Shown here piece after piece: positions 5,391 to 22,765 of a stretch of DNA of 64,000 bases. The stretch spans positions 63,580,533-63,644,532 of the forward strand of contig OX485804.1 in the NCBI GenBank assembly GCA_950295325.1, written 5' to 3'. Position numbers and translations under genes: made by a program. Source of the DNA: Polytrichum commune (taxonomy: Eukaryota; Streptophyta; Polytrichopsida; Polytrichales; Polytrichaceae). Position 1 is the stretch's first letter; each line of letters begins with the position of its first letter. The notes beneath the pieces were generated by a model. That model saw nothing but the letters and a program-made list of their open reading frames with translations, was not told the DNA's origin and made no database searches.

Positions 5391-6877
5391 TCATTCAACG
5401 TGGGTTGCTTCTTCTGCGATCCGAGCAAGGTTGTCTTTTGCAAAAGTTATGTACTTTTGAGGGATGGACACTGATCCACTATGATTTTTCCGTGGTTTCC
5501 ATGCTATGAATATGGAATCTGTATCTACCCAAGATGGACCGTGCTTAGAATCCACCTTCCACCGAAAGTTAGGGTTTGTATCCCAGTTTGTATAATGCCG
5601 AACAACATCTTCATTCCGTGTTGTCGATCGGTAGTACTCTACTTGTATTTGTCGAAAATGAGGGCTGGAAGTTACAAAATTTGGTTTGGACAAAGCTCTT
5701 GCCACCCACGCTGGCTTTGCATATGTCTCATCTCCAGGACTCAAAATGAGCATATAACCTTCATGACAATCCACTGCAATGCGGAAAGATGGTGGCGGAC
5801 GACTACTAGCAGGCCCCACGTAATGGTCGTCCACATCAAACTCCTCTCGAACCTCTCCATTTCCCAAAAGACTAGCCTCCGAAGCTTGTACATTGACACG
5901 TGTTTGTGGCCAAAACCCATGCCTTAAAGTAAGGGGTGTATCTTGATGAAGGTTTGCCAAAGCGCCACGAACACGTATCCAATATTGTATCCAACTTCCG
6001 TAACGAAGCCAACACGATCCACCAACATCCGCTACCCTCAAACTCTCCCAATATTGTATGAAGCATGATATGCCTTTACAAATGTCCTCCAAATTCTTCA
6101 TGGGCATTGGTTTGCAAGGCTTAGGCTCTCCGTCAGGCAACATCGTCTTTCCTTCCCCATCAACACGCCATACAAGGAAACCCTCCGGCGGGCTCCAGTC
6201 TTGTGATGTGCACAACAACTTGTATTGCATGGCGGGGACACCATCGTCACGCACGTAGAACCGAAATTGTTGTGCCTTCGTATGCCCGATCAATCGGTGT
6301 GCTCCGCTTCGAATATACGGTTCTATAAATGCCTTGAAGTCTGGAACCTCCTCGATCATATGGGGGATGACGGGAATGTTCTCCAAATCCATGTACGACT
6401 TCATCAACAATGGAATTGTTGGAAAATCCTCCTCGCGCAACTTCATGCTCCACCGCCCAAAAGATGCATCGATATCATCGTGCGTGTGGCCTACCAATAG
6501 AAATGACACAAAAACCTCCTTGAAAATGCCTTTCGCAACCAACAACGACCAATAAGCAAAAACATATCTACTTTTATTGTCCTTCGCACAATTGTCCAAT
6601 TGGACACGCAGAGTTGGGGGCAAATTCTTGGCAATCACATCTTCACTTGGTGGCTCCGGCAAGGAGTGCACGCAGACATCTCTTCCATCCAAGACCGCTT
6701 CATATAGAGGTGTTGATCCCGAGTTTTCAAATAACAATCTTGATGAATAGGACGGCGGTTTCTCCAAATCACGTAAAAGCTTTGCAAATGACCCTATCGT
6801 GTGGTTTGAATCCGCCGGATACAAATCAAGAGCATAATGAGCATATTTGACATCACCATGCCCATGTGCAATCATTC
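5391..6877 (-). CDS. C-terminal exon of a DDE/RNase H-like (DUF7869-like) transposase-type gene
   Basis: About 495 codons stay open from the acceptor (TTTGCAG just upstream of 6877) to a stop at 5391. Conserved-looking acidic motifs are LDNC with KDNK (aspartate codon near 6594-6596) and VGHTHDDIDASFGRW (about 6465-6495). With the aspartates of IIHDKMDH in the preceding exon they could form a DDD/DDE-type triad. This motif set resembles plant and protist DUF7869-type proteins associated with DNA transposons; I infer a transposase-like role but cannot prove activity. The last ~130 residues (GDETYAKPAWVARAL through IFIAWKPRK) look like a small beta-rich BAH-like module, tentatively. It is joined to the upstream exon by a 138-bp intron (7015-6878). 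The exon is intact, unlike its upstream partner. Confidence 0.72.
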
Positions 6878-7015
6878 CTGCAAAGCCACCCCAATGGTTT
6901 AATATTCAACTATAACACCAAAAAATTCACATGGTGTACATCTATGGCCCCAAGTACAAACCTAAAAGCACAAATTTGTGTTTAGGTAATGTAATGCAAT
7001 TGTTGTCAAAATCAC

Positions 7016-8458
7016 ATGTAACCGATACAAGAAGCTTAAAAAGGCCGTCCGTGGCTTTGATTCGATTTGCAAAACATGGTGAGGCTGTTTTGGCATGGTC
7101 CATTTTATCATGGATGATTGTAAGGACCTCCAAAGGCCTAGAGATGGACAAAACTCTATTTGTGTAGTAACCATTACGGTGTGCCTCTTGCATGTTCACA
7201 TGCTTGAAATAGTTCATTTGATGTGCTGCATAGGACTCTGTCCCCATCGTGTGTGCATCTCGAAGGCGTTTCAACTTCTCGCATTTGGAACAACAGGCAA
7301 ATTTGTCGCCTCGTCTTTTTGTGATGTATTCGCTAAAGTTCGATTTTTTGATTGCACTCAGTTTCGACAACGAAATAGGGTCCAACCCAGCCTCTCGCCA
7401 ACTGCGTTTACGTCCAACAATATGTCTTTCCATCTCGTGCCTGTAGGAAGAACCTTCTCCACAACCTTTTCACCGGTTGCGAGTGTGCGTGTTTTGTGCG
7501 GCATTGCATCGGCAAGGGGGACAATGATGGTTGCCAGAGTGGTTGTTGCTTGTCTCGTTGCTTCCCTTGGTTTCTTCAAGCTCGTATTCCCATGGTGACG
7601 AGACCGGCGTCCTTCCTTGGCATACGCGGCTTGTCTATAAAATTCCGCTTTCAACACACCGTGAATGGTGTACCATGCCGTACAACACACGTCTATGCTC
7701 TCAAGGGTGATGACCTTGCGACCCGCTCCGTTCACATGTATCGCCCTATGGACATCAAGCTTTTTGGTGGATCTGAGACGGAAATCTCCAAGCCACATTT
7801 CCTCGCGGATGGCCTTCAATTTATCCCTTGGGAACAATTGGCAACAACGATGTACACAACAATCCTTTGTGGTAACTTCTCTAATAGACTCCTCACATAG
7901 CAATCTTTGACGTTTACACTCATTTGTAGACGGAGTAGGACGTGCCAATGTATCGTACTTCCGTAGGCCTTTGCGTGGCCTAATGTGTGCTTGGAGCTCG
8001 TGTTGGATTTAGATGTGTCGTCGCTCATGGTCATGCAAGCTAACCCCCTCAATTGTCACATTCCTCAACGGCCACCTTCGCAACGAGAACCTATGAGTTG
8101 GATTCACTTCGGAATGTACAAGTGATTCCAATATAACAACTCCAACGTCATCGGTGCCAAGGGGGTTTTCATCAATGCAATCTTGTAGATGTGTGTTACG
8201 ACAAATACCCTCCGCCACAGCAACTCCATTGTCATTAACAAGTACCACATCCAAATTCACCCATGATGCTCGTGAAAGCCCCGCACATTCCACAATAGGG
8301 CAAGAAGGGGCAGATGGCGAAGGACTCCCCAAGTCATCTTCATCTGCACTGTCATCAAAACTATCCTCCCCGACAATGTCTAGCTCATCCCCAGACGTAG
8401 ATTGCGTGTTGCCCATGTCGTCAGAGAAGGAATCCCCTCTTCCACCAACTCCCTCCAT
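7016..8458 (-). pseudogene. N-terminal exon of the DDE/RNase H-like gene, broken
   Basis: The first good ATG is at 8458 (MEGVGG), just after a TGTGTAG acceptor-like site. It is followed by an acidic Ser/Asp/Glu-rich stretch, a Cys/His-containing region (CCVHRCCQLF), a basic region, then ISLSKLSAIKKSNFSEY and a Cys-containing GDKFACCSKC segment, ending with IIHDKMDHAKTASP, whose aspartates probably begin the catalytic triad (codons near 7109 and 7100). Three breaks are visible. There is an in-frame TAA at 8011-8009. The frame changes near 7381, where a one-base deletion would explain the switch at ERLGW/DPISLSK. The donor at 7016 (ACAT|GTGATT) creates a TGA across the splice junction with 6877. 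As it stands the gene cannot encode the full protein. Confidence 0.65.
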
Positions 8459-8658
8459 TGCGCCTACACACATGCACATGAAACCTCAACACACATGGAA
8501 AGAATGTAAGGGTCCAAAAAGAATCAAATATCGGAAAATGCAAGACACCATGATCAATGGGGACACCGAGGATGAAGACATTTCCAACACAACTACACTG
8601 TGAACTCCCAACACTGTGCGCAAGTCCAAAAAAAGTTCCAGAAAATATTTTGGTGGGG

Positions 8659-9470
8659 GTTTGGGTCGACCGGCCCAAACCTCATAAGGGTCATACTGAA
8701 ACCCTAACACACTGGGGTAGGGGTTTGGGTCGACCGACCCAAACCACACAAGGGTCAGACAGAACCCCTAACACATTGGGGTAGGGGTTTGGGTCGACCG
8801 ACCCAAACCTCACAATGGTACATCCACCCACACCAGGTACGGGTTTGGGTCGGTCGACCCAAACCTCATAAGGGTCAAAAAAAATTGAAAACATTGGGGT
8901 AGGGATTTGGGTCGACCGACCCAAACCTCATAAGGGTACATCCACCCACACGAGGTAGGGGTTTGGGTCGGTCGACCAAAACCTCATAAGGGTCAAAAAA
9001 AAAATTGAACACACTGGGGTAGGGGTTTGGGTCGACCGACCCAAACCTCATAAGGGTAGTACATCCACCCACACCAGGTAGGGGTTTGGGTCGGTCGACC
9101 CAAACCTCATAAGGGTCAAAAAAAAATTGAACACACTGGGGTAGGGGTTTGGGTCGACCGACCCAAACCTCATAAGGGTACATCCACCCACACCAGGTAG
9201 GGGTTTGGGTCAGTCGACCCAAACCTCATAAGGGTAAAAAAAAATTGAACACACTGGGGTAGGGGTTTGGGTCGACCGACCCAAACCTCACAAGGGTACA
9301 TCCACCCACACTAGGTAGGGGTTTGGGTCGGTCGACCCAAACCTCATAAGGGTCAGAAAAAAACCCTAACACACTGGGGTTGGGGTTTGGGTCGACTGAC
9401 CCAAATCTGTTAAGGGTCATACATAAACCCTTACACACAAGTGGACAGGTTTGGGTCGGTCGACCCAAAC
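8659..9470. repeat. Array of 14 palindromes, GTTTGGGTCG-NN-CGACCCAAAC
   Basis: Fourteen 22-base palindromes start at 8659, 8723, 8787, 8843, 8905, 8961, 9025, 9084, 9147, 9203, 9265, 9321, 9385 and 9449, so spacing alternates around 56-64 bp. The two central bases are mostly AC or GT, so consecutive copies mostly alternate in orientation from 8787 on. Linkers also alternate: one kind reads ACACTGGGGTAGGG, the other CATCCACCCACACCAGG, giving a roughly 118-bp double unit. A few arms carry single mutations. The array lies between the TATA box near 9780 and the first coding exon at 8458 of the minus-strand gene, so it is probably transcribed as a 5' leader or leader intron. Reading frames in it are only translations of the repeat. 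Confidence 0.92.
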
Positions 9471-9610
9471 CTCATAGGGTCAGACTCAAAACCCGCCAAC
9501 ACTAGTGGAAAGGTGAAGGTTCGCCCAAGTACACCACAAAATCCGGCGTATAATGCGGCGGATATTGCGTGGTGTGGTGAATTTGAGCTCATTGCAAACT
9601 TCACGGTGGG

Positions 9611-9669
9611 CTTGCATGCTGTGGGTAGGTGCTCATGAACTTGCATGCTGTGGATAAGTGCTCATGAAC
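9611..9669. repeat. Two-copy 30-bp tandem repeat in the leader of the minus-strand gene
   Basis: Two copies of a unit beginning CTTGCATGCTGTGG and ending GCTCATGAAC are adjacent and differ at two or three bases. They lie just downstream of the inferred transcription start of the minus-strand gene. Confidence 0.75.
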
Positions 9670-9739
9670 GGCAGCATGCACGAATCTTGAAGTACAGCTC
9701 CTACTAAGAGTTCTCTCTACGAATTCGGCAGCGGGAGAA

Positions 9740-9783
9740 GAGAAAAAAATGACCAACTTCTGGGGGGTGCGCCCCTTTATACT
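9740..9783 (-). promoter_or_regulatory. Core promoter of the transposase-like gene (TATA box)
   Basis: On the minus strand TATAAA occupies 9781-9776 within AGTATAAAGG. About 30 bases downstream (near 9748-9740) the sequence becomes pyrimidine-rich (CTCTTCTCCC), a usual start-site context in plants. Position and strand fit a leader running through the palindrome array to the first coding exon. This is inferred from motif and spacing only. Confidence 0.5.
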
Positions 9784-10383
9784 ATCCACCTCCGCTTCCC
9801 AGACTTTGTCATTGGATGCCTTCCCCGCCTTCTTCTCTTGCAAAGGTTATTTCAAACCTCCTGACAACATTCCCCGTTTTCTGTTTATAGTAGAAAAATG
9901 CGCATCTATGAATGCCCCTCTGATACCCCGGCCGTCATATGACTTAGTCTATGTTATTTAATCTATTTTTTTTGTTTTGTGTGGATATGACATACGCCAT
10001 TGGGAGGAAGGGTGGCGGCCACATTAATTTTTTCAAGTATCATCACGGCATATTTTAACCAATATGTAGACCCAAACACAACTCCATTCAATGCTTTCAA
10101 GTGTAAACCTATTTAGGTGGGGTTTGGGCCATTTGGAGGCTGCAATTATGAGAGAGTTTCCAAGGCTTGAGGCCATTGTCATGATGAATAGAATTATTTA
10201 TTTGTCTCCACTAAACCCTAAACCCTAGAACATTGCTCTATTATCTCGCATGCAAGTGTGGGAATGACAAACACGTTGTGGACGTTGTTAAGGGGATACT
10301 AACTACCAATGTCCCTTTTTAGTTCAATCTTTTAATGTTACTTGAATCCATCATCAAGTTCACTTCAAGTTTACTAATGTGTG
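9784..10383. other. Intergenic DNA between the two divergent genes, with a telomere-like motif
   Basis: No gene is seen. At about 10212-10229 there are two head-to-tail copies of the plant telomere unit (AAACCCTAAACCCTA). Such telo boxes occur in plant promoters and as interstitial remnants; nothing here decides between the two. Confidence 0.45.
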
Positions 10384-11220
10384 TGAGCAAAACATCCAAA
10401 ATTGGACCCTAAACCTTTATAACATCCACAACATGAAATACATATTGACTAAATACAAAACCAATTAGGATATCCTGTTTAAACGTCCCATATAGCATAT
10501 TCACATGATCAAGATTGTATTTACTATGACCTTCCGATTAGACTCTTCTTCATATTATGCAAACAATATATGTTATATCTTCCTCCATTATCTAATACAC
10601 GTGGAGAGAACAATGAACAACAACATGATTGCTTGAATGGCTTCATTTCATGTTGTGCTTCTCCGATTAACTTTTGCATCACATTCCATATATTCAATAC
10701 ATCATGAACCATGGTTTATTAGCGACTATGTGATTCCCTAAAGTGAGCAAAACATCCAAAGTTGCACCCCTAACCCCTATTAACATCCACAACATTTCAT
10801 GTTATTTGAATAAACACAAGAGCAATCAATATATCGCGTTTAAACGTCTCAAATAACAAATTAACATAATCAAGATCGTCTTTACTATAACCTTCCTATA
10901 AGACTCTTCTCACCAGTAAGACAATGTTATACATTGACATTGGATAGATTAATATGTTATAACCCTATCTCCTATCTCCTAAACCCTAAATCCTAAACAC
11001 CAAATGTAGTTGTGGTTCACTGATGCCCCCATATACAAACAACATCTATTTTATCTTGCGCCATCATCTAATATACATGGAGGGAACATGTATAACAACA
11101 TGATTGCTTGAATGGCTCCATTTGATGTTCTGCTTCTCCGATTTACTCTTATATCACAATCTAATATATATTAAATATATCGTGAACCATGGTTTATTGG
11201 CCACTCTGCGATTCATCAAA
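10384..11220. repeat. Tandem duplication of a 360-480 bp unit
   Basis: Unit one (10384-10741) and unit two (10742-11220) share ordered blocks: GTGAGCAAAACATCCAAA, TTAACATCCACAACAT, GTTTAAACGTC, AGACTCTTCT, ACAACATGATTGCTTGAATGG and CATGAACCATGGTTTATT. Unit two has an extra ~90 bp insert with CCTAAACCCTAAATCCTAAAC. Neither unit codes for a recognisable protein. It lies in the spacer between the two divergent genes. Confidence 0.8.
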
Positions 11221-11412
11221 GTCACAATATCAGGGATGTACTTAAAACTTGAGCATGTTAGCATTTTCAAATAAGGCTCATGCATTTCAAAACCCTTACA
11301 AAATGCAGTTGGGGAATGTATTCATTTAATAGGCTCCACACTCAAGTATTCTAAATTGTTCCACATGTTAGGGGGTGTGGGTAGATTTTTTTATTCATTC
11401 AATATCGTGTGA

Positions 11413-11672
11413 GTTGTTGGCATCATTGGTAAAGTCTAGATGTCAATGATTACATCGTTGAATATCACGCAATTGTATGGTTTTCCTAACATGCTCGAAC
11501 AAAAGAGAAACCAATGCCCTCAATGTGTTTGGAAAATTTAGGGTATGGTGTCATGTAAGTAAGGGTTAAGTATTCGTTTAGCACAAAGTTTTGTTGTAAG
11601 AATGCATTGGCTATATAAATGGTTAGTTTAGTAGAATAACACATTTTATGTAGCACCTTAGTGTACTCCAGA
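11413..11672. repeat. Direct repeat copy A (partner at 12627-12863)
   Basis: It begins GTTGTTGGCATCATTGG and runs through TCAATGATTACATCG, CAAAAGAGAAACCAA and AAAGTTTTGTTG to a TGTAGCACCTTAG end. The same blocks recur in order 1.2 kb downstream. The two copies flank 11.7-12.6 kb like ends of a decayed element, but no terminal TG..CA signal is convincing. Just beyond, around 11750, lies TATGTTGGATGAACGAGAGG, also found at the ends of the MITEs at 48.7 and 54.7 kb. Confidence 0.7.
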
Positions 11673-12626
11673 GTTCAAGGTACATACTATTTAAGGGCTT
11701 TATGTTGAATAGCCTTCAAGTTACATACTATTTAAGTTGCATACTATTTAAGGGCTTTATGTTGGATGAACGAGAGGTGCACTTGTGCACTTTAGAATTA
11801 TGTCTTGCTATAATTTTTTACCGACATTATCGTTTTTTACGAACTAAGTCATATCATAATTTTTCGTGTGCATACTACCTAGTTATGTTATTTGGATGAA
11901 AAAATACTTTCTATTAAATGTTACAGAAATGTGTAACTCCGAATGTTATGCCACACTAATTAGAAAAAATAGTCTAGTGGATTAGGAAATGATCACAAGC
12001 ACAAGGGATTGAAAACTTGAGAAACTTGTACAAAAGCTTTGGTGGGGTGCGAGGTGGGGGTGGGGGGCATTTTATACATCATAGTAGAGTTATACATGAA
12101 GTCTTGGATCAAACTTAGGTTTGAGAATATAACCATAAAGTCATCCAATTATTTCAAGGACTTAGAACCAATTTTAAAGCAGGACCACAACAACATAGTC
12201 TAATGTTTGGGTCGTCCTACCTAAACCATCCCAAATTAACGAATATAGTGATTAATACAAATGCAGCCTAAAAAATAAGTGACTTAGCCTATAAAATTTT
12301 GAGAGTGTAGGACAAAGAGCCTATGCACAATTTAAGAACATAGGATATCAACCTAGTATGTGATAAAAAACATGTAGGAAATTTTACCTACAAATTTTTT
12401 AAAAGAGAGGATTTTAGCCATTCATCCTTCTTCAAATTGGGAAATTAGTTGGCCTAAGTACATATCTTTAGGCTATATCTTGCAGGAAGAGTAGAGGTTG
12501 AATCAGAAGATGGTGAGGACTTTTACCCTTAAACTCATTTGAATTTTAGCAACCTTTCATAACTTATAATCAACGCTTTAAAAAACAGTTGGTTAATCCT
12601 TGGCCTTCAAACGTGGTGAAAGGCAT

Positions 12627-12863
12627 AGTTGTTGGCATCATTGGGAAAGTCTAAATGTCAATGATTACATCGTTATATGTCACGCAATTGTATTATTTTT
12701 CTAACTTGCTCAAACAAAAGAGAAACCAACGACTTCAACTTGTTTGGAAAGTTTAGTGTATAGTGTCATGTAAGTAGGGGTTAAGTATAAGCTTTGGCAT
12801 AAAGTTTTGTTGCAAGAATGCCTTGGCACCGCACCTTAGTATATTTCATGTAGCACCTTAGTT
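12627..12863. repeat. Direct repeat copy B (partner at 11413-11672)
   Basis: It shows the same ordered blocks as copy A with moderate divergence, in the same orientation. The DNA between the copies holds one diverged 22-base palindrome at 12205-12226 (GTTTGGGTCG then TC then CTACCTAAAC) and nothing else recognisable. Confidence 0.7.
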
Positions 12864-12949
12864 CATTGAAATAAGTAATACCCGCTAAGGGTTTAGAGTT
12901 AGGCTTTAGGATTTAGGGTTCCCCGAAATCCTAATTACGTGGGTACCCT

Positions 12950-13050
12950 AATCATGTGGGCCGCCTATTGGCGGGGGTGGGGCCAATTCCCGAGGCGAAC
13001 AAAACCCCAAACGTCACCTTTTCGAATTCTTTCTCTCTCTCTCCGCGCCA
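12950..13050 (+). promoter_or_regulatory. Candidate promoter of the plus-strand ParB-like gene
   Basis: Base composition jumps to GC-rich. An inverted CCAAT (ATTGG) near 12966 and a direct CCAAT near 12981 flank a GGCGGGGG box, so the block is itself nearly an inverted repeat. ACGTCA (bZIP-type core) follows near 13013, then a TTTCTCTCTCTCTCC pyrimidine run that could be the start region. A degenerate telomere-like stretch (AGGGTTT, TTTAGGG) lies just upstream around 12887-12920. No clear TATA box was seen. Confidence 0.4.
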
Positions 13051-13714
13051 AGCATTCCCTCTGCGCCTCGCTTGGAAGCGCCGCCTCTCCTGAAGCGCCG
13101 CGGCGATTCAGGCGCGGTATTCCCACCATTCTGCTTCTTCTTCATTATTTCTCTTTTTGCTCTTGCTCTTGCATAACTCTTATCCAATCTTAGGTTTTAG
13201 GAAGAGTCTTGAAAAGCACAGAAACTTGCGGAGGAAAGGTTTAGTGCGTGAGGGTAAAGGAACTTAGTAGAGGAGTTTTCAAGAGTGTTGTTTAAGAGTG
13301 TTGCAGAGTGTTGAAGAGTGCGGCAAGAAGTTAGGAGAACATCGTGTAGGAGGTTGAGATTGTGCTTGTGAGTATCAGGAGTTATTGTGTAGTGCAAAAG
13401 ATTTCAAAGTCGTTTGAGCGATTCTATAATTTTGTGATAGATTCAGGAGTTGCTTGAGACATTTAGAAGTCGTTTGAGAGATTCAGAAGTCGTTTGAGAG
13501 ATTCAGAAGTCTTTTGAGAGATCCAGTATTTGTTTGAGAGATTTCAGAGTTGTTTGTGAGATTTCAGAGTTGTTTGAGAGATTGAAGAGTTGTTTGAGGG
13601 ATTCCAGAGTTGTTTGAGATTGAATAGTTGTTTCAGAGATTCCAGAGTTGTTATTGAAGGTTATTGGAAAGAGACATCATCTACTCCAAAGTGTTTGCAG
13701 TGCAAATTTCAAAG
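13030..13714 (+). other. Probable untranslated first exon of the ParB-like gene
   Basis: The segment runs from the pyrimidine-rich start region to a good donor (AAAG|GTATTG at 13714/13715). The matching acceptor (CTTGCAG at 14371) falls immediately before the ATG at 14372, implying a 657-bp leader intron. No convincing long ORF exists in it. It contains the minisatellite at 13401-13655. The exon is inferred from splice signals and composition, not from a transcript. Confidence 0.45.
13401..13655. repeat. Minisatellite, about 20-24 bp unit (GATTCAGAGTTGTTTGAGA)
   Basis: Roughly ten imperfect units of GATT(C/T)CAGAGT(C/T)GTTTGAGA run head to tail. Early units read AGAAGTCGTTTGAGAG and later ones AGAGTTGTTTGAGAG. 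It lies within the inferred untranslated first exon, so it would be part of the mRNA leader. Confidence 0.85.
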
Positions 13715-13846
13715 GTATTGTGTTATGTTTCTGGTCTCTTAGTGTTGTAGCATACACAACACATAAGCATTGTTTATGCTATGTGCAAACTTTTAAAATA
13801 TATTAATAAAAAACACTTTGGGGAGACGACCCAAACAAGGACTGTT

Positions 13847-14345
13847 GTTTGGGTCGATCGACCCAAACAAAGGCAGACGTTTGAAACCCTCCACCCAAAC
13901 AAAGGCTGATGTTTGGGTCGCTCGACCCAAACACAGTCTTTTAAACCCTAAACTCATAAAGAAATCCATGATGTTAGATACAATATAAAATACAAATCCA
14001 CCCAAAACTAAATAATCCGATGTCAGCATACAAATGATGTTCACATATAATAATACAAACTAGGGTCCTCTCATTCTTGGGTCGCTGGACGCAAACAAGG
14101 GCTAATGTTTGGGTCGCTCGACCCAAACACAGTCTTCTAATTATAAACCCATCAAACAATCTATGATGTTAGATACAATATAAAATGCAAGTCCACCCAA
14201 AAATAAAAATACAATATCACCATTAAATGATGTTCACATATAACAATACACAAACCAACAAAATACATGCGGCAATCTATTACATTTCAATTACATCACG
14301 TGACTTCTATTCAGTTTGAAGAAGTTTGGGTCGACCGATCGAAAC
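13847..14345. repeat. Four 22-base palindromes in the leader intron
   Basis: Copies at 13847-13868 (centre AT, perfect palindrome), 13911-13932 and 14107-14128 (centre CT) and 14324-14345 (right arm partly mutated) share the arms GTTTGGGTCG and CGACCCAAAC. A half copy lies at about 13826-13837 and a damaged one near 14075-14097. Short flanks (TAGATACAATATAAAATGCAA-like and ATGATGTTCACATATAA) recur around 13970-14060 and 14165-14245, so larger units were also duplicated. Confidence 0.85.
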
Positions 14346-14371
14346 TAACATTGGGGCTTCATTCCTTGCAG

Positions 14372-15697
14372 ATGGCCCCAAAGAAACGACCAGGCGAAAG
14401 GTGGTTCATGCTTGCGCTAGACATGATATGGCAAGAGCACGAAACACCGGAAGATGACTCCTACATTCCTAAGGACGGGCTTGTCCTCGCGTGGTCTATC
14501 CAAGTGGTTAAGGGTTCGCAATACAAAATGATTTTTGTTGTGAAGGTTGGGACCGTGGAGAAGCACACATGGGCTACTCTTACGGGGTGGGAGGTGGCAT
14601 CGGTTCAGTCTCTTGGAGACTACGTGGATGTCATCCTCGAGAACAACGCTGTCCAGAACGCGCATATGTTTATGCACCAGTTCTCCGAACCCTTTGACGC
14701 TATCTATGCAAAAGAAACATGTGTAGAACCAGACATCATCAAACCGGAGTCCATATTCATCGATAACAGTACATCGAACACAAAGGTGTCGAGCCGATTC
14801 ACGAAACTAAAGCATGCAATCAGCGTGCTCAACAAAGCCCTGCAGAGCAAAACCAAGTCTCAGCAACCCGTGAGGCGGAAAGCTAAAACAGAGGAAGGTG
14901 TAGGGTCGTCAAGACCTCAATCGGTGAGGAAGCCGTGACCAGTACCGATTGACTCGCGGAGGACCACTCCCTCCCAAACACCTGCAGATAGCGAGACGCC
15001 TACACCTTCTGGGAGCCGTCAAACAACTCCATCCAAGAGGGCAAGAGAGTCATCTGTGATGACTGACGAGCCAGTCTCACCGGAGTTGCGCATGCCGAAG
15101 CCCGGCGAAGAGGTGGATGCAGGGGAGCTGCAGAAAATCGTGAACAATTTCACGACGAAATGCTCCCACTGTTTTTTCATGGGCAGGGATTTCAAGTTTG
15201 ACGTGAACATCAGCCAGTGCCATCTAGCGCCACCGGAAAAGTGTGTCCGGGCAAAGGAGGATGCCTACGTTGACTGGATAATTGCGCAAATCGTTTGCGA
15301 GCAGTTTAAAGACGACAGACAAACGATTGTAGTGATGCCACAGGGTCTCAAGAAAATGCCTACACCTGAAATGTGGCCAACAATTCAGAAGGGCGTTTTT
15401 TGGCTCATAGACGGCCAACACAACGTGGAGGCATCCAAGAAAATCCAACTCATGAATGAGTGGGATGATCCGAACAATCAGAAGGAGAAGCTGAAGGTTT
15501 GGAAGGCACTGGTGGTGTGGTCTGACGACGAGACCAAGCTCAGCGACATCTCCCGGTACTTCAATATGGGAAACAAAAAGAGGGCCTACCAAGCGTCCTG
15601 GATAAGGAATATCATGGCCTCGCGGGAGGTGTGGGAGTTCTATGGTAGGCCTCCCAAGGAGAGGGAGAATGCGAAGGACAAGAATCCCAAGTGGGAG
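14372..15697 (+). pseudogene. First coding exon of the ParB-like gene (ParB-type domain)
   Basis: The ATG at 14372 directly follows the acceptor CTTGCAG; 442 codons in one frame run to the donor GAG|GTGAGT at 15697/15698. Residues 1-100 form an unrecognised globular part. A Ser/Pro/Thr-rich linker follows and contains an in-frame TGA at 14936-14938, in a CGA-like context. The last ~170 codons resemble the ParB/sulfiredoxin fold: DVNISQCHLAPPEKCV, then IIAQIV..TIVVMPQG, then VFWLIDGQHNVEA (DGQHN at residues 347-351), then VWSDDE..ISRYFN. DGxHR is the hallmark of ParB-type nuclease/CTPase domains; here the arginine is replaced by asparagine. I infer a ParB-like domain; function is unknown. Confidence 0.6.
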
Positions 15698-15706
15698 GTG
15701 AGTATT

Positions 15707-15964
15707 GTTTGGGTCGACCGACCCAAACACCTGGTGCAACCTTGTTTATCTAGTTTGGGTTGCTCGACCCAAATAATTGTTGCAGTCTTGTGTTTTCTAG
15801 TTTGGGTCGATCGACCCAAACAATTGTTGCAGTCTTGTGTTTTTTTAGTTTGGGTCGATCGACCCAAACAATTGTTGCAGTCTTGTGTTTTTTAGTTTGG
15901 GTCGATCGACCCAAACAATTGTTGTAGTCTTGTGTTTTTTTAGTTTGGGTCGATCGACCCAAAC
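15707..15964. repeat. Six palindromes in coding intron 1, starting 9 bases after the donor
   Basis: Copies start at 15707 (centre AC), 15753 (damaged), 15800, 15848, 15895 and 15943 (centre AT, perfect palindromes). They are separated by about 25 bp of near-identical spacer (AATTGTTGCAGTCTTGTGTTTTTTA), so this is a tandem ~48-bp unit. The whole array lies inside the intron 15698-16054. Confidence 0.93.
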
Positions 15965-16054
15965 TCTTGTTGCAGATGTTGGTCATGATATGGTTTGAAA
16001 ATCACATGTACATATCTAACACGCATTCAAATGTTATGTTTGGTTCACGTCCAG

Positions 16055-17386
16055 GATTTCAAATACCAGATGATCAACAAATTCTCCTCCATTGATAATT
16101 CGAGCCACAAGTAGAAGAAATACAGCGACCTCAAGGGGGAGATTTACTTGATTACAGCATCGGACTCAGTTTGGAAGAAGTGAAAAACCGTGTTTGAAAA
16201 GTACGAGACGGGAGATTTGATCGATCCCGACACTGGCATTTATTTCAGCCAAACCTCGCGCTTCAAGCAGATGAAGCCTCTCGTGAGAGAGTTTTTTAGA
16301 ACTCTTCAAGGGCTGTCAGAGACGGAGGTGGAGAAAGCGGCATCGCACATCCTGCACGTGGCACCCACGGCGAAGAGGTGCTGGGTGCACCCGAAGATTG
16401 TCTTCCAAAAACCAAAATCCTTCGTTCCTTCATGCTACACCATGAAGGAATGGACGGACAACAAGAAAAAGAAGACGACTATCGTGCATGAGCTGCATAA
16501 ATTGGTGCCAGAGAGGAATATTGTCGTGGACGGCGAGGTTCATGAGGCTAACTGGAGATCATTCAAAGCTGAATATAAGTTCACCAGTGCCTCCATGGCG
16601 GCTCTAATAAGGGAAGCGGGTGACGATTTCTTGCGGGCCAAGATGGTGAAGGGTGGGAAGAACCGGGTGCTTCCGGATCACACAGCGCATGCGTTCTCGA
16701 ATTTCATCAAAGAGAAGAAGATTGTCCAGTTTGAAGGGGAAGCGTACTTCAACCTTGTCACCGTCGACCCTTTGAAAATTCAGGGTTGGCCAGGTCAAGA
16801 CGCCAGAATGGCGATAAGGACGAAAGCAAGGGACCGCTTTCCTTTTGGGATGATTGATTTCAGGAATATTCCTGGAAGCTCATTTGAGGGCACGATGAGC
16901 ACCCTCTTCTACGACCCCTTCCTGTCTAAGTTCGTCGATTATGCAAGCCCTAAGTTTAGGGAGGTAGATATCTGGCTTTGGATAGTCGAGGATAGGAGGG
17001 CGGAGCAGGTGTACGAGCTTGTCCGGAAACTGCAGCCGGAGTATGCAGTCTCCAAGTCTCACTACATCGCCGCACCAGCGGAGGGGGCTTACACGACGTT
17101 GAGGGACAAGAAGACCAAGTTCGTCAACGTCTTGTGTTTGTACTTCGTGTACAAAACGGAGTTGCTGAAGGTGCCGAACCACCCTATATCCCAAATGGAC
17201 AAACTCTTCCAAGTTCCAGAAGGGTTGGGTGCCAACAAGTGCCTCTACGACGAGGCTAAATACGCGAACTATCCTGTAGATGAGCTGCGTATGGAATTTT
17301 ACGTGAGAATGATGAGGACGCTGACGAGGAGAGGGGACTGCATCTTCAACGTCTTCGGAGGCTCGAAACCTATCTATGCTGCCATG
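16055..17386 (+). pseudogene. Second coding exon: degenerate methyltransferase-like domain
   Basis: The exon runs from acceptor CCAG at 16054 to donor ATG|GTAAGT at 17386, 444 codons, phase 0 at both ends, with in-frame stops TAG at 16112-16114 and TGA at 16181-16183. The rest is open. Downstream, VDIWLWIVEDRRAEQVYELV..LQPEY resembles the 'lWvtn..l..al.l...wGF' part of beta-class N6/N4 DNA methyltransferases. The end, ELRMEFYVRMMRTL then GDCIFNVFGGSKPIYAAM, aligns position by position with the permuted SAM-binding motif 'gd.vlDpFaGSGtt..Aa'. Key residues are altered (D to N, G to K), and the expected DPPY position (near GMIDFRNIPG) is not conserved. ParB-methyltransferase fusions are known in prokaryotic mobile elements. 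The assignment is inference. Confidence 0.5.
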
Positions 17387-17414
17387 GTAAGTGATTTTCT
17401 ATAGCTCGTGCGCA

Positions 17415-17508
17415 GTTTGGGTTGATCGACCCAAACTAGGGTCTTTGTTGGTTTGGGTCGATCGACCCAAACTAAGCTCTTTGCAGGTTTGGGTCGATCG
17501 ACCCAAAC
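17415..17508. repeat. Three palindromes in coding intron 2
   Basis: Copies start at 17415 (one mismatch, GTTTGGGTTG), 17451 and 17487, the last two perfect with centre AT. They are 36 bp apart with short spacers (TAGG/AAGCTCTTTG...). All lie in the 192-bp intron 17387-17578 and make up most of its unique sequence. Confidence 0.92.
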
Positions 17509-17578
17509 TAGATATTATTTTTGGTCTTGTTTATGTCCCTCGCCTAATTCTAATGTCTATATAACTTGGATTGTGTAG

Positions 17579-19064
17579 ATGTCGGGGCTGAGTATATACT
17601 CCTACATAGAGGATGGCGATCTGCCATTTTACAGGGCGCAGAGATCGCTGGCGAAGAAGATGGACATCCTCGATTGGATCCCGGGTAGCTACGTCGACGA
17701 GGTTGTTCAGGGGGGCGAAAACCCTCTTGATAGGGTGAGGCGGATCAACCCGGAAGAAATGGCCATGAGGGCCACAACCCAAGTACCCGAACCTCTGGTC
17801 GGGTTGCATCTGGGCAATCCGTCCCGCACAGAAGGTGGCGAGGTTGACGAGGAGGAGGAAGAAGAGGAGCACGAGGAGGCGGAGAAGGAAGGCGACGTGG
17901 AGGAAGGGGCAACGGGCTTCACGCAAGAATCCGAAGCCCCTCAACGGAAGAAGGCGATGCGGGCGGCAACCCCGCAGAGTAAGCTGGTGCCCGTCCTGAC
18001 GGTGGACGATGCACGGGACATGTACTCCAGGGACGCCACCGCCACGTTTAGGGAGAGGAGGAAGTTAAAGGGGAAGAAGCTGTATGGCAACTACTCCGTG
18101 GAGGAGACCATTGCCATAAGCAGCGAGGACGACGATGACATTGAGCTCGCCAAACGGCTAAGATCGGATCCCCCGTCCCCGACAGCGTTCGCTGGCATGG
18201 TTAGGGTGAAGCCCGAGGTCCTGACTGTGGAGGAGGCGAACGAGAAGATGAGGAGGGACGAGGAGCAGCGAGTCCGCCTGCAGAAGGCTGCCGCGGAAGA
18301 ACCCTCAATGCGGAACGAGGTCGCAGAGCTGAGGGCTCTCCTGTTGGAGCAGGAGCGTCAAAGGGCGATGGCCCAACCTCCGTCCCACGCTGACTTGATA
18401 TCACAAGTGATACAAGGAATGTGGGCGCAAGGTTTGGTGGTGGCTCCCTCCAGCTCCTTCCCGCACTTGCCCCCCGGCTTCCCTGCGCAGAGCATCCCTC
18501 AGCAACCTTTGCTGCAATCGTCTTTCAGTTTCCAGCACTTGATTCGGCCCCACCAAGTTCCGTACGCGCCGGTCCAGCAAGTGGATGACCCCAACATCTG
18601 GCGCGTCTCTGGAGCCTCCTCCCCTTTGGGCCCTCCACCACTTCGGCCCCCCATAGTCATGGCGCCCCCCCCACCAATCGGACGACCCCAGGATGTTTGG
18701 GTCGACCGACCCAAACCCACCATCCACTGTAGTGTCCGAAGGGCCCTCTCCAGATGCAGGACAGTTTGGGTCGGGCGACCCAAACCCCGTTGCAGCGCAG
18801 TCCTCCCTTGACCAACATGGGTGTCAACTAGACACGGCCATGCTAGATGTTGAAGGCCTGCAAGGGCCTGGTGATACCTCTACTCCTAACCAAATCGATG
18901 AACCCATGCATGATGCACATGCGGAGATTGGTTTAGGACAAGGGCCTGATGCCGATCGTTTGCAGGAGAAGGTTCCTGACGTCGTTGGAGAAGGCGGTGG
19001 CGAGAGAGGCGGGGCAGCGGGGACGGTGGAGGCTTCCACATCGTCGAGACATGACCAGGGTGAG
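17579..19064 (+). CDS. Third coding exon: acidic, coiled and proline-rich linker region (frameshifted)
   Basis: The exon opens at ATG 17579 right after acceptor GTGTAG. The upstream exon joins it in phase, so the ATG may be an internal Met rather than a start. It encodes a short N-terminal part (LSIYSYIEDGDLPFYRAQ), a Glu-rich acidic run near 17850-17910, a charged helical segment (ANEKMRRDEEQRVRLQ), a QPLLQ/Pro-rich part and a PPPLRPP segment. The frame changes at an eight-C run (18665-18672): upstream frame one is open, downstream frame two is open to GAG|GTAATA at 19064. Two 22-base palindromes (18695, 18764) lie inside the exon and are translated as FGSTDPN/FGSGDPN. No family recognised. 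Confidence 0.5.
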
Positions 19065-19107
19065 GTAATACACTGAGCCCTCCCAGTTTGGGTCGACTGA
19101 CCCAAAC
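18695..19107. repeat. Three palindromes, two in the coding exon and one in the next intron
   Basis: Copies are at 18695-18716 (centre AC), 18764-18785 (one mismatch, centre GG) and 19086-19107 (centre AC, one mismatch). The first two interrupt the proline-rich coding exon. The third begins about 21 bases after the donor at 19064/19065. Confidence 0.9.
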
Positions 19108-19549
19108 TTCTTGGGTCATTGTCTTGTTGGCCTGGTCGTGTCCCCCTTGCTAGGAGGAAATGCACACCCCTTGCCCCCCCTGCTCTACACTTGCTCCCCC
19201 TCCCCCCAACGTGCCCCCCCGCGATCCCCTTCGTCTCGTCTGCATTCGACTACGCTCGACCTTGGCGGCGCGCAACCAATTTTGTGGATGTAGAATTAGG
19301 ATAGTGTGAATGCCCTCGTTCACCGCGGTCCCCCCCCATCAAATTATACATAGAGATTTGTAAAAATAAAATTATTATTTTTGGCGCCCATATGTTTGCA
19401 TCCATGGCCCAATGTATGTTGTTCCCCTTGTATGTTTTTGTTGCCACCAATGGTCCAATTGTTCTTGTGTTTGCACAAAATTTCCGTTCTGCTTGAGATG
19501 GACATAGCATAACATAGTCCTCGCCGCCTTCTCTCGCTCGTCGCCGCAG

Positions 19550-20362
19550 GGTTCGGAGCATAGCGTCGCGGCTCCCCACCGATCCTCTCCGAGGAGTGTG
19601 GAGGACAGCGTGCTGGTCCCCCCGATTTTGCCCTCGCCACCTTCGCCTCCCAAGACCCGGTTCCTGGTGCTAGACCTCAACGGGGTCCTTGTCCAGTGCG
19701 TGCATTGTCCGAGGGTCCCCACGGTGCCTTTCTGCAAGCCCGAGGACACCAACTACGATGGACCCCCCGCGTACATCAAAAGCAAGCTAGTGTACCTCCG
19801 CCCATCCCTTCGGCGCTTCCTACAGGTCGCCCTATCCAAATGGTGGGTGTTCATTTGGAGCTCCATGAAGTCCGAGAATACCCAGGCCGTCGTGGAGTTC
19901 ATCTTCAAGGGACTCCAACCCCCGTGCTTGGTCCTAGGACAAGATTCTTGTAAAACATTATACACCCCCGAGGGTAGGGTTGTGAAGAAGCCCAACAACC
20001 CCGCCGTAAACCAATTTCTTAAGGTCTTGAAGCCAGTCGTATGGGACCAGCGTCCGACCATGGTCGGCTGTCCCTACGACGTTCGCCCCACCCGTGACAA
20101 CACGTTGATGGTGGACGACAGCGCTTCCAAAAACATTTTGAACCCGACCTCGAACTTCATAGTTTGCCCCACGTGGACGGTCGAGAAGGTCCAAGACCGC
20201 TTTTTGTTAGACCTACTTAAGTACATTCAAACGCTCATGGGGAGCGGACTACCCGTGCCCCGGTTCCTTAGTTGTAATCCGATAGGCGAAAGATACATGG
20301 ATCCGAAGGACTATATGTACAGAGAGTTGTATGCTCACGCGAAATATAATAAACTCATTTGA
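19550..20362 (+). CDS. HAD-superfamily FCP1/NIF-like phosphatase domain exon
   Basis: The acceptor CGCCGCAG precedes 19550, and phase 0 matches the upstream exon. The frame is open to TGA at 20360-20362. HAD motif I is FLVLDLNGVL (codon 19673 for the first Asp). The usual second Asp is Asn, as in a group of plant FCP1/NLI-interacting-factor-like proteins. Motif II is probably FIWSSM, motif III a Lys in GRVVKKP, and motif IV NTLMVDDSASKN (Asp codons 20114-20119). The C-terminal part (MDPKDYMYRELYAHAKYNK) is not recognised. The family acts on phosphoserine/threonine, typically of RNA polymerase II CTD; the Asn substitution makes activity here doubtful. It may end the protein or be spliced on to 20482; no clean phase-0 donor was found before the stop. 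Confidence 0.68.
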   Translation, partial: GSEHSVAAPHRSSPRSVEDSVLVPPILPSPPSPPKTRFLVLDLNGVLVQCVHCPRVPTVPFCKPEDTNYDGPPAYIKSKLVYLRPSLRRFLQVALSKWWVFIWSSMKSENTQAVVEFIFKGLQPPCLVLGQDSCKTLYTPEGRVVKKPNNPAVNQFLKVLKPVVWDQRPTMVGCPYDVRPTRDNTLMVDDSASKNILNPTSNFIVCPTWTVEKVQDRFLLDLLKYIQTLMGSGLPVPRFLSCNPIGERYMDPKDYMYRELYAHAKYNKLI

Positions 20363-20481
20363 GATACTACATGGTGTGCCATTGTGTGTGATATATTATG
20401 CCTCAATTGTATATCGATTTTCACATGCTCCCCCCTCCCCCCCTCCCCTTGGGTTTTGTTTTGTTTCTTTTTTTGCGCCAG

Positions 20482-20835
20482 CGTTTGGAGCCCTCGATTG
20501 AGATCGTCAGCGAATCAAACTTGGGGAGCTTCTTCTACGAGACCGTCTACGATGCCGCGTCCACCATCGACTACTCCAAGGAGCCTCTTGACGCCGGCGT
20601 CGTTGATAGCCCCCCACCCAAGCAAATCTTACGGCGATCTCCGTCCCCGTCGCTGCTCAAGGGCATAAATCGCAAATGCATCCGGACGTCCCCCTCTCGG
20701 CCCGGCGGCAGTATTACACCTCAACGGCGGCTGCGGATGGACACTCGGCCTACGAAGAGTGGAACCCTTCCTATTCCTTTGCGGGACGCCTTGCCCCTCC
20801 TCGCCAACTCCGACGCGAATGGCCCCGGTGACAAG
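20482..20835 (+). CDS. Coding exon of unknown function downstream of the HAD exon
   Basis: There is a good acceptor (GCGCCAG before 20482) after a pyrimidine- and T-rich tract, and a good donor (ACAAG|GTGAAC at 20835/20836). The exon is 118 codons in phase 0. It encodes RLEPSIEIVSESNLGSFFYE then a Ser/Pro/Arg-rich tail. No domain is recognised. How it joins the HAD exon is unresolved because that frame stops at 20362. Confidence 0.45.
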
Positions 20836-20960
20836 GTGAACCCCCCCACACATGGTTAACCGCGCATTACAATCATTTTGCTCTAAAAAAATGAACGTGT
20901 GACACGTTTGGGTCTTCCTCCCTAAACTAACACATGTGGTCTTGCATTGACGCGTTGCAG

Positions 20961-21278
20961 GTTGCTCCCACCCGTAGACCTATGCGGGCTAGTGCGTCCG
21001 TCGAGTTGGAGCGTTTCTACTCCATGACCAGAAATGCAAGACAGTCCACTTCATCGTATTCGAATTCTTCGTCGTATAATTCGGGCGGCCGACGGAATCC
21101 AAAATGTGTTATTGATGGCGGTCACCCCAAGAATGGCTATAGTCGCGGGGCGGAGATTTTCAGGAATGTTGAAGCAATGCGAGCAAAAGAAGCCGCAGCA
21201 AAAGAAAAAGAGGCAAAAGAAAAAAAAACAAAAGAAAATGAAGCAAAAGAAAAAGAGGTAGTCTCCGAGGCTAGATAG
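20961..21278 (+). CDS. Last coding exon, with Lys/Glu/Ala-rich helical tail
   Basis: The acceptor GCGTTGCAG lies directly before 20961 and phase 0 matches the donor at 20835. The exon encodes a short basic/serine-rich part, SYSNSSSYNSGG, then a highly charged repeat of the type AKEKEAKEKK (about 21182-21260), and stops at TAG 21276-21278. The tail would form a long charged helix. The intron before it (20836-20960) contains a decayed palindrome at 20906-20927. Confidence 0.5.
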   Translation, partial: VAPTRRPMRASASVELERFYSMTRNARQSTSSYSNSSSYNSGGRRNPKCVIDGGHPKNGYSRGAEIFRNVEAMRAKEAAAKEKEAKEKKTKENEAKEKEVVSEAR

Positions 21279-21420
21279 GCCATAGTAGGCGTAGGGTTTT
21301 GGGCCATAGGCAAGAACATTTTGGGTCACAGTATGCAATGGATGTGTGGTGTTAGCATGCTATGCATTTTACATGCCACACTTTGTATGTTTTTTTTTGC
21401 AATAATATAAGTGTCACATG

Positions 21421-21664
21421 ATTTCCCCTTCCATATGGTCTAAGGTTTGGATTGCCCTACCTAAACCATCACAAATATGAGTTTGGAATATTTTGTATGT
21501 TATATTATATTGGTTCACATATTTCCCCTTCAATATGATCTATGGTTTGGATTGCCCTACCTAAACCATATTCATACAAGTTTTTGTGCGATAATATGAA
21601 TGTTTTAAGATTTCCCCTTCAACTTGGCCTAAGGTTTGGATTGCCCGCCCTAACCAATCCCAAA
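21421..21664. repeat. Three tandem units carrying a diverged 22-base palindrome
   Basis: Units begin with ATTTCCCCTTC at 21421, 21521 and 21610. Each contains a 22-base near-palindrome at 21445, 21545 and 21634 of the form GTTTGGATTG-CC-CTACCTAAAC. The same length and outer arms as the GTTTGGGTCG palindromes suggest a diverged branch of the family. Related copies lie at 12205-12226 and 20906-20927. Confidence 0.8.
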
Positions 21665-22765
21665 TATGAGTTATTAATGGGGTTCTTGTTCTAAACACCC
21701 GCTTCAAAGTGTTCGCATCTTACAACTTTCTCCAATATGTGTTCCGTTTATCCTTGTTCTTATTTCTGTGAATGTCTCAAAATGCCCAAAAAGTCTCAAT
21801 TTAACGAATATAGTGTTATGTCTCATTGTCTGTAGATACATGAAGTTCAATGTTACCATTAACATTTTTTCATTTCTTTTGTTTGATGGAGATGTACGCA
21901 TTTAATTATTTTGTATTTATGATGAAGCAAAGTGCATCACGTATGGATGCATTTTTTTTAGGCCATCATTGTGTGATGGAGAATTGTCATATTCAACAAA
22001 TCTTTTTTTTGAGTGACATATTATTGAACAATGCTACGGTTGATGACTTGACTGTGACTAAACTAGCATTGAAGGGGATCACAAAAAAAATTCAGCAATT
22101 ATCATGAGTTTCAAAAATATTGTTGCCCCAAAAATTGAGTGGTGGTTGAACTTAATGTCTTGTCATGTATAACATCAATAATTCTTATTTTGCATCTTGA
22201 TATTTATATTATTTGTCTCTAAATTTATTCAACTTGTGAGGAAAAATATTTGTCATTCCAAGATCATGTATAAGGCATGACAAACTTTTGGACACAAGCT
22301 GGTATTTTTTTCCCTTGGCTGCAAAGTTTTACAAGGAAAACATCCAAGAGATGTTGGAGGAGGAGACACATACTCAAATCTTCTAATCATAGCAGCAAGT
22401 CTAGTTACATATCATATACCTCCCTTCATCCAAAATTTGATGACATGGCCATAAATTCAAATTGTTACTTAATTTTAGAATTATACTTGAATTGAATTGT
22501 CAAATGTGATTGGTCCATCTTCTCGTGGCTACAATCTTCCGCCATGGCTAGAAGACACAACACGCCTACACGTGAATTCATGATCACCCACCCATATTCG
22601 TTTTTTACATTGGAAATTTAGAGGTGGAGTCAAATTATACATGTTTGTAAAGGCAGTTAAACCCTCTAAGTAGCCTTTCATTTATTTGTTGGCAACTGTG
22701 TATGTTTTAATGAATTGGTGATTTCTATAAGATCTATGAATTTTGATCTCATTCATTGTGGACTA
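21665..22765. other. AT-rich intergenic DNA, no gene recognised
   Basis: Short reading frames here are AT-biased and lack domains. A phrase CAATTTAACGAATATAGTG near 21797 recurs as CAAATTAACGAATATAGTG at about 12232, so some of it is dispersed repeat. Confidence 0.45.

Follow-up and report, generated by a model that had tools for sequence, protein, structure and literature searches.

VANC, encoded by the VANDAL transposons of Arabidopsis, is a described case of a transposon-encoded, motif-guided anti-silencing factor (PMC5735166, PMC10398659). As reported there, VANC21 occupies introns as well as intergenic and terminal noncoding regions of VANDAL21, the VANC motifs are tandemly repeated and vary from one related family to another, and methylation loss throughout the elements is induced by VANC (PMC5735166). 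Here we describe a comparable arrangement in 64,000 nucleotides of Polytrichum commune DNA (assembly GCA_950295325.1, contig OX485804.1, positions 63,580,533 to 63,644,532), a stretch called the window below. Within it lies a 16,958-bp DNA transposon (window 4860-21817) with two divergent genes, a DUF7869 gene on the minus strand and a second gene on the plus strand, and 22-bp palindromes stand in the introns of the plus-strand gene and in an array upstream of the minus-strand gene. These palindromes look like lineage-private addresses by which the element's protein finds its own DNA. As in VANC/VANDAL, there is an element-encoded protein together with short, family-specific motifs repeated in tandem in introns and upstream regions. 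Unlike the VANC21 motif, given as the short YAGTATTAY, the motif here is a dyad of 22 bp whose 2-bp center is free; also unlike VANC, the candidate protein has a predicted ParB/sulfiredoxin (Srx) fold, the element has a 4-bp target site duplication (TSD) and a DUF7869 gene, and an anti-silencing role would be reached by analogy.

The bacterial parS site is palindromic. ParB nucleates at parS and is described as spreading by CTP-dependent sliding (PMC8367383), and a length of 16 bp is given for parS (PMC8494293). The moss element resembles this system in its palindromic site and its predicted ParB-type domain. It is unlike it in being a eukaryotic transposon with 22-bp sites by the dozens, in giving no sequence-profile matches, and in showing no ParA among the frames scanned. 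By title or start of abstract, no description of ParB with plant transposons or of parS with eukaryotic transposable elements was found in the open-licence literature.

How firmly is the palindrome established in the window? Its consensus is GTTTGGGTCG-NN-CGACCCAAAC, two 10-bp arms around the free center. With at most 3 mismatches allowed, GTTTGGGTCGATCGACCCAAAC is matched 30 times in the window and not once in 100 dinucleotide shuffles; for GTTTGGGT-N6-ACCCAAAC (free center, up to 3 mismatches) there are 37, versus 0.48 expected. An earlier note on this DNA had placed the palindrome in almost all introns of the plus-strand gene, and a pattern scan bears this out. Four copies stand in the leader intron, at 13847, 13911, 14107 (perfect arms), and 14324 (2 arm mismatches), six in coding intron 1 (starts from 15707 to 15943), three in coding intron 2 (starts 17415, 17451, and 17487), one in intron 3 (19086), two in the preceding exon 3 (18695 and 18764), and a single decayed one in the last intron (20906); none stands in the intron near 20.4 kb. 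As that note also observed, the first palindrome of intron 1 begins 9 bases past the donor in the window copy. The scan adds degenerate palindromes in the leader intron at 13879 and 14075, a degenerate match at 12205, and, absent from the note, the 14-palindrome array upstream of the minus-strand gene. The homologous exon 3 of the C1:1176k copy is open across both exonic palindromes.

The arms are far more alike than their surroundings. Seven compartments of the window element, with 14, 4, 6, 3, 2, 1, and 1 sites, were compared, and between compartments the arms are 94.7% identical versus 29.4% for the flanks (20 + 20 bases) and 29.8% for random flanks (349 pairs). Within compartments the flanks reach 62.5% identity, as would be expected from tandem duplication. 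Intron 1 was also surveyed in 24 family-1 copies (20 fetched, plus the window, C3:369, C1:117, and C1:612), which hold 2-7 sites each. Over the 98 sites, arm positions are 92-100% conserved, the two center positions 89% and 56%, and single flanking columns 37-96%, figures to be read with two limits in mind: the sites were selected by arm match, which favors the arms, and they are neither unbiased nor independent, the flanking conservation coming from related copies and array duplication.

Do related elements carry the same palindrome? A second DUF7869 element (family 2, C2:3662501-3682500), 52 and 33% identical over two stretches and 39-42% in further exons, has no GTTTGGGT sites and has its own palindrome, CCCACGGGTG-NN-CACCCGTGGG, with 644 genome sites (center of two free) and none in the reversed control. 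The second gene of this family, taken from the copy at C1:48468001-48478000, has the same exon order as the window gene, including an exon resembling NLI-interacting-factor (NIF) phosphatases. Its palindromes occupy the leader, introns 1, 2, and 3, and one place in exon 3, and an 18-bp core recurs in intron 4 and past exon 5. Family-2 exon 1 used as query gave 97 matches, down to 24-29% identity, and a lineage-specific 10-NN-10 palindrome was found in 14 of 14 loci that we chose from these (at most 1 mismatch; palindromes with fewer than 6 G+C left out). The half-sites are CCCACGGGTG (1 locus), CCCACGGGCG (2), GTTCCTCTCG (6), CTTCCACTCG (1), (A/C)TTCCACTCG (1), CTTTCACTCG (2), and CTTCCTCTCG (1); as controls, one shuffle of each locus gave 2 sites in total, and 42 kb of the window outside the element gave 1. 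L039, L042, L046, L047, L049, and L050 have one to three palindromes of another kind besides. The innermost G is identical in all eight half-sites (seven lineages plus the window). Two further lineage palindromes have 71 and 211 sites in the genome (center of two free; none in the reversed control), clustered where listed. Family-specific motifs in tandem repeats of an element's noncoding DNA, the arrangement that characterizes VANC, are what these elements contain.

Half-sites diverge along with the protein. Taking one representative for each of the 8 half-sites, protein distance and half-site distance give a Spearman (Mantel) rho of 0.90 (permutation p 0.0009), a correlation expected from shared descent of sites and gene as well as from co-adaptation. 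The stronger point is that separate arrays in one element have unrelated spacers and the same arms, as seen in the window and in the family-2 sites too.

What kind of protein might read such sites? The candidate is encoded by exon 1 of the plus-strand gene, for which 15 relatives share an NGQH/DGQH motif plus a block of invariant residues. An AlphaFold2 model of the conserved core of one relative, L044 (16-sequence alignment), has a predicted local distance difference test (pLDDT) score of 67, with blocks 51-170 at 64-93, and a predicted template modeling score of 0.67. Among the best 50 of 198 Foldseek rows, ranks 1-42 are ParB, Noc, KorB, sulfiredoxin, free serine kinase, SbnI, and one unnamed Pyrococcus protein, and unrelated chains start at rank 43 with E about 1. 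The best match is 6sdk_A (E 1.1e-3, probability 1.00), and no match has E under 0.001; the TM-scores lie at about 0.25-0.55 overall and about 0.3-0.44 for the ParB rows. VIA-align places the core on Noc 7ng0 at Z 8.6 (2.3 Å, 96 residues) and on ParB 6sdk_B at Z 8.5 (2.2 Å, 97 residues); a Z of 8.6 is near the level that VIA-align states to be common (best Z 7-8), though the leading rows are still one superfamily. The exon-1 core thus likely has a ParB/Srx-type fold. Of the two marks of the ParB/sulfiredoxin superfamily, the fold is predicted for the L044 core, and a match to a curated sequence profile was not found. Pfam, NCBIfam, and PDB-sequence searches with the exon-1 protein gave nothing relevant, the 15 members searched at E 5 gave no ParB families in Pfam or NCBIfam, and PHROGs gave single weak ParB matches only (E 0.09 and 0.2). 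A search of IMG/VR viral contigs for a relative gave 4 pattern matches, none of them confirmed.

Intron 1 can be followed across the lineages. The aligned ends of exon 1 share an invariant W, with the donor after it (GT in 14 of 15 copies, AT in L043), and all 15 intron-bearing copies have 1-5 lineage-type palindromes (at most 1 mismatch) in this homologous intron. (L050, whose exon is broken by a stop, is in the 14-locus scan and was left out of alignment A1 and of this comparison; L004/L005 and L029/L030 are in the 24-copy survey and were likewise left out here.) In L038 (C1:33084401-33089000), exons 1 and 2 form one open frame that is palindrome-free there, and this subfamily appears to have lost intron 1 or never to have gained it. 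These observations also support the borders of intron 1. Judged from these alignments, intron 1 is older than the palindromes inside it.

These comparisons bear on two proposals of the earlier note, that the palindromes show introns made by insertion of the repeat and that hairpins beside donors affect splicing. Introner-type introns, or those made by miniature inverted-repeat transposable elements, are recognized by a repeat in most introns of a gene, and the plus-strand gene is like them in this respect. It is unlike them in that intron 1 is common to lineages whose repeats differ, often with several palindromes placed away from its borders; the intron is neither coextensive with the repeat nor dependent on it, and palindromes also stand in exons and in the upstream array. 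Creation of the introns by the palindrome can hardly be credited, and we reject it. As for splicing, the idea that the palindromes act as RNA hairpins controlling it draws on their intronic position and on the first site lying 8-9 bases past the donor, a distance seen in the 24 family-1 copies. In other lineages the distance is 45-140 bases, and the 9-base spacing is therefore a family-1 trait, not a general one. With donor distances of 9-140 across lineages, one subfamily in which exons 1 and 2 run on in a single open frame and intron 1 is missing, as many as 16 sites in an array, and sites within exons, an effect on splicing is not needed, and we consider this explanation highly improbable.

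Which reading, then, do the palindromes support? VANC-like placement, tandem growth, and lineage specificity, combined with the ParB-like predicted fold and dyad symmetry, are our reasons for taking them as loading sites. The earlier note had also raised protein-binding sites, and this part gains indirect support from the conserved arms, the variable 2-bp center, and arms that track a protein of the same gene with a predicted ParB/Srx core. That the element's ParB-fold protein binds the palindromes seems likely to us; that they are sequence-specific landing sites for this protein, the product of the plus-strand gene, is somewhat more likely than not. A dimer would read the two 10-bp half-sites across the free center, as ParB reads parS, and each lineage's protein would thus recognize its own copies. 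With less confidence, protein that had loaded at numerous sites in the two genes would spread over or mark the element, the marked element would stay transcribed against host silencing, and the NIF phosphatase-like exon would possibly act on RNA polymerase II. An anti-silencing role, suggested by the VANC analogy, has in our estimate a little less than an even chance. More tentative again is the full picture of a eukaryotic ParB-parS-like module, in which a ParB-fold clamp would load on lineage-private 22-bp intron palindromes, spread, and keep the element active, with a code rewritten at lineage splits and shared by a Mutator-like element (MULE)-like transposon. If true, it would place a ParB-type fold and parS-like sites in a eukaryotic mobile element, and it would be a second self-addressing system on a different fold, making self-specific addressing a general transposon answer to silencing. 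Eight half-sites with alignable proteins in one genome would also be a natural table for deriving recognition rules, which might yield sequence-specific tools for plant epigenomes.

Several points weigh against the palindromes being landing sites of the ParB-fold protein, in addition to the limits given above with the site conservation, the Mantel correlation, and the Foldseek and VIA-align scores. Sequence searches (Pfam, NCBIfam, PHROGs, PDB sequences) do not identify the exon-1 protein as ParB, and no DNA-binding domain was identified in it. The modeled core comes from L044, which is 31-32% identical to the window family, and the whole exon-1 model of family 1 itself was poor (pLDDT 40) and was left out of the fold search. 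The palindrome of the window is also used by a second, MULE-like element, whose candidate protein is a different one. Finally, three loci (C3, C6, C7) of a more distant DUF7869 lineage, chosen as an expected palindrome-free control, all have their own palindrome arrays upstream of the DUF7869 gene. Presence alone thus assigns the palindromes to neither of the two genes; they accompany the DUF7869 gene too.

This last point leads to the rival in which the palindromes are bound by the DUF7869 protein (the putative transposase) and serve inside the element as transposase or repressor sites. Three DUF7869 lineages (the window; C2:3662501-3682500; the C3/C6/C7 loci) each have their own array upstream of that gene, as this rival would have it, and a module-free DUF7869 lineage had to be rejected as a negative control, with own palindromes at 3 of 3 loci. 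The third-lineage sites are (G)GGTGAGGCA-NN-TGCC(T/C)CACC(C)-like, mostly with one mismatch between arms. Some 1.5 kb past one of these arrays, a short stretch of 57 residues matches the ParB-fold core at 33% (E 2e-4 when 9.5 kb were searched), and the module may be complete in this lineage too. A DUF7869 binder sits poorly with sites that run through the other gene's introns and with a left terminal 3.8 kb free of sites except for a degenerate one at 5051. Moreover, in one copy each of family 6 and family 4, both with palindromes, no DUF7869 or MULE similarity was found over 10 kb of upstream sequence, the far ends of the elements lying outside the range read. We regard a DUF7869 binder as unlikely, although the least unlikely of the rivals.

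Binding of the palindromes by the ParB-fold protein might instead serve to partition, pair, or replicate an extrachromosomal form. The predicted fold and the many dispersed sites per element are compatible with such a role. No ParA-like family was found among the open frames scanned in the window and family 2, scans that covered parts of each element, and the intronic placement would better fit transcription control; we hold this role to be improbable. The chance is smaller still that the palindromes are neutral, self-amplifying micro-repeats, as their tandem arrays and a copy number varying from 2 to 7 in intron 1 might suggest: arrays of one element share arms and not spacers, the 10-NN-10 length is constant across lineages with different arms, and single or paired sites stand within exons.

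Returning to the proposed landing sites of the ParB-fold protein, how are the palindromes distributed in the genome? In its 407.8 Mb (64 contigs) there are 10,046 exact GTTTGGGT-N6-ACCCAAAC sites and none in the reversed control. Among the sites listed, seven clusters lie within the initial 2.16 Mb of C1. The window element accounts for three of them: C1:612k, a subfamily with 77-92% DNA identity over its pieces, C1:1180k, and C1:2115k, the last assigned by an exon match inside the cluster. In the other four (C1:434k, 458k, 471k, and 2151k), similarity to the window element is limited to the palindromes. C1:434k, 458k, and 471k align to C1:2151k at 90-97% around the palindromes, and all four are copies of a second high-copy element; a palindrome scattered outside elements was accordingly rejected. 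The genome-wide count that the earlier note had called for, asking if the palindrome is equally common everywhere, was thus run in part: the listed sites occur in clusters, and all seven of these clusters fall in high-copy elements.

In the second element (C1:2151k), one gene resembles a transposase and matches SWIM weakly (E 0.075, not passing the Pfam cut-off), and we read it as MULE-like. Palindromes lie between two frames of the transposase-like gene, and an array stands upstream of a second gene. The GTTTGGGTCG palindrome is shared by its copies L028+L036 (C1:471001-488000) and L031+L035 (C1:2151001-2169000). In the product of its second gene, a methyltransferase-like stretch (VVDLTCSTGASILATRACGRHLLAFE) comes after a DGNHR motif, and the DGNHR exon had 1,168 first-look candidates, of which 150 were scored. 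Homology of the DGNHR protein to the ParB-fold exon was not accepted (profile comparison probability 4%, E 0.0099).

The transposon that carries the window gene can itself be delimited closely (Table 1). Its 28-bp terminal inverted repeat, the same at both ends, is AACACTATATTCGTTAAATTGAGACTTT. The C3 copy is collinear from 4859 on, and the C1:1176001-1196000 stretch stops short of the element's left end. A matching 4-bp TSD was found at 8 of the 9 copies with both ends read (ATGT four times, TAAT, ACAT, TGAT, and AGAT); at the ninth, another element's end abuts. At C5:2493486 (L017), two element copies meet tail to tail at their terminal repeats. A first look gave 1,119 and 1,106 candidate copies for the two ends and 962 for part of exon 1, rough counts of which 40, 40, and 150 were scored, and the copy number is roughly 1,000 by this estimate. 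Sola transposons are described as having a 4-bp TSD, inverted repeats of 11-1124 bp, and lengths above 15 kb, and as being present in the moss Physcomitrella (PMC10741241). The window element is like them in its TSD, in an inverted repeat length within that range, and in its size; these traits would fit Sola, the DUF7869 protein itself being placed by its Pfam match alone. This protein is perhaps the element's transposase. DUF7869 was not found in the open-licence literature.

Table 1. Coordinates of the transposon and its parts in the window
Feature	Position	Strand	Basis or remark
Left TSD, ATGT	4856..4859		Comparison of element ends
Whole transposon, family 1, 16,958 bp	4860..21817		Collinear with copies at C3:36941172 and C1:1176001-1196000; similarity ends at these bases
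Left terminal inverted repeat, 28 bp	4860..4887	+	Comparison of element ends
DUF7869 gene (PF25273), putative transposase; frames 5391-6875, 6942-7433, 7358-7948, 8009-8479	5391..8479	-	Pfam E 1.8e-40 for 5391-6875
Palindrome array, 14 copies, 56-64 bp spacing	8659..9470		Pattern scan; lies upstream of the DUF7869 gene and is perhaps its leader intron
Leader-intron palindromes, four and two degenerate	13847..14345		Pattern scan
Exon 1, DGQH-motif protein; stop 14936-14938 in window copy	14372..15697	+	Alignments A1, A3; ParB/Srx fold predicted for homologous core of relative L044
Six palindromes, intron 1	15707..15964		Pattern scan, comparison of copies
Exon 2; stops 16112-16114, 16181-16183 in window copy	16055..17386	+	83% amino acid identity in C1:612k subfamily; a family-2 exon judged similar by eye
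Three palindromes, 36-bp spacing, intron 2	17415..17508		Pattern scan
Exon 3, with the two exonic palindromes	17579..19064	+	Pattern scan; homologous exon open in C1:1176k copy
Palindrome, intron 3	19086..19107		Pattern scan
Exon 4, NLI-interacting-factor (C-terminal domain [CTD] phosphatase-like) domain	19598..20362	+	PF03031 E 1.3e-13; family-2 counterpart E 3.7e-11
Exon 5	20485..20836	+	91% amino acid conservation in C1:612k subfamily
Decayed palindrome, last intron	20906..20927		Free-center pattern scan
Right terminal inverted repeat, 28 bp	21790..21817	-	Comparison of element ends
Right TSD, ATGT	21818..21821		Comparison of element ends

The window copy of the plus-strand gene is decayed, with the in-frame stops listed in Table 1 and a frame change in exon 3; other copies with longer open exons exist. 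A PDB sequence search with the NIF exon gave no useful matches. In two families, the NLI-interacting-factor (RNA polymerase II CTD phosphatase-like) domain is an exon of the transposon gene. A 20-base tandem repeat lies at 13379-13638, in the untranslated leader of the plus-strand gene. Degenerate relatives of the palindrome (GTTTGGATTGCCCTACCTAAAC) occur at 21445, 21545, and about 21635, roughly every 100 bp and no more than 400 bp from the element's right end, and are perhaps subterminal transposase sites. A repeat of about 610 bp (86-87% identical) is inserted in several elements, at C3:36952007 (L002), in L028 at 7619, in L036 near 2702, and in L027 at 8046; exon 2 of the C3 copy is one of its insertion places. 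Elsewhere in the window, minus-strand open frames of up to 61% G+C at 24155-26218 have no Pfam matches, and an open frame with a POX domain (PF07526, E 4.1e-11) at 34133-35698 is a plant host gene, presumably BEL1-like.

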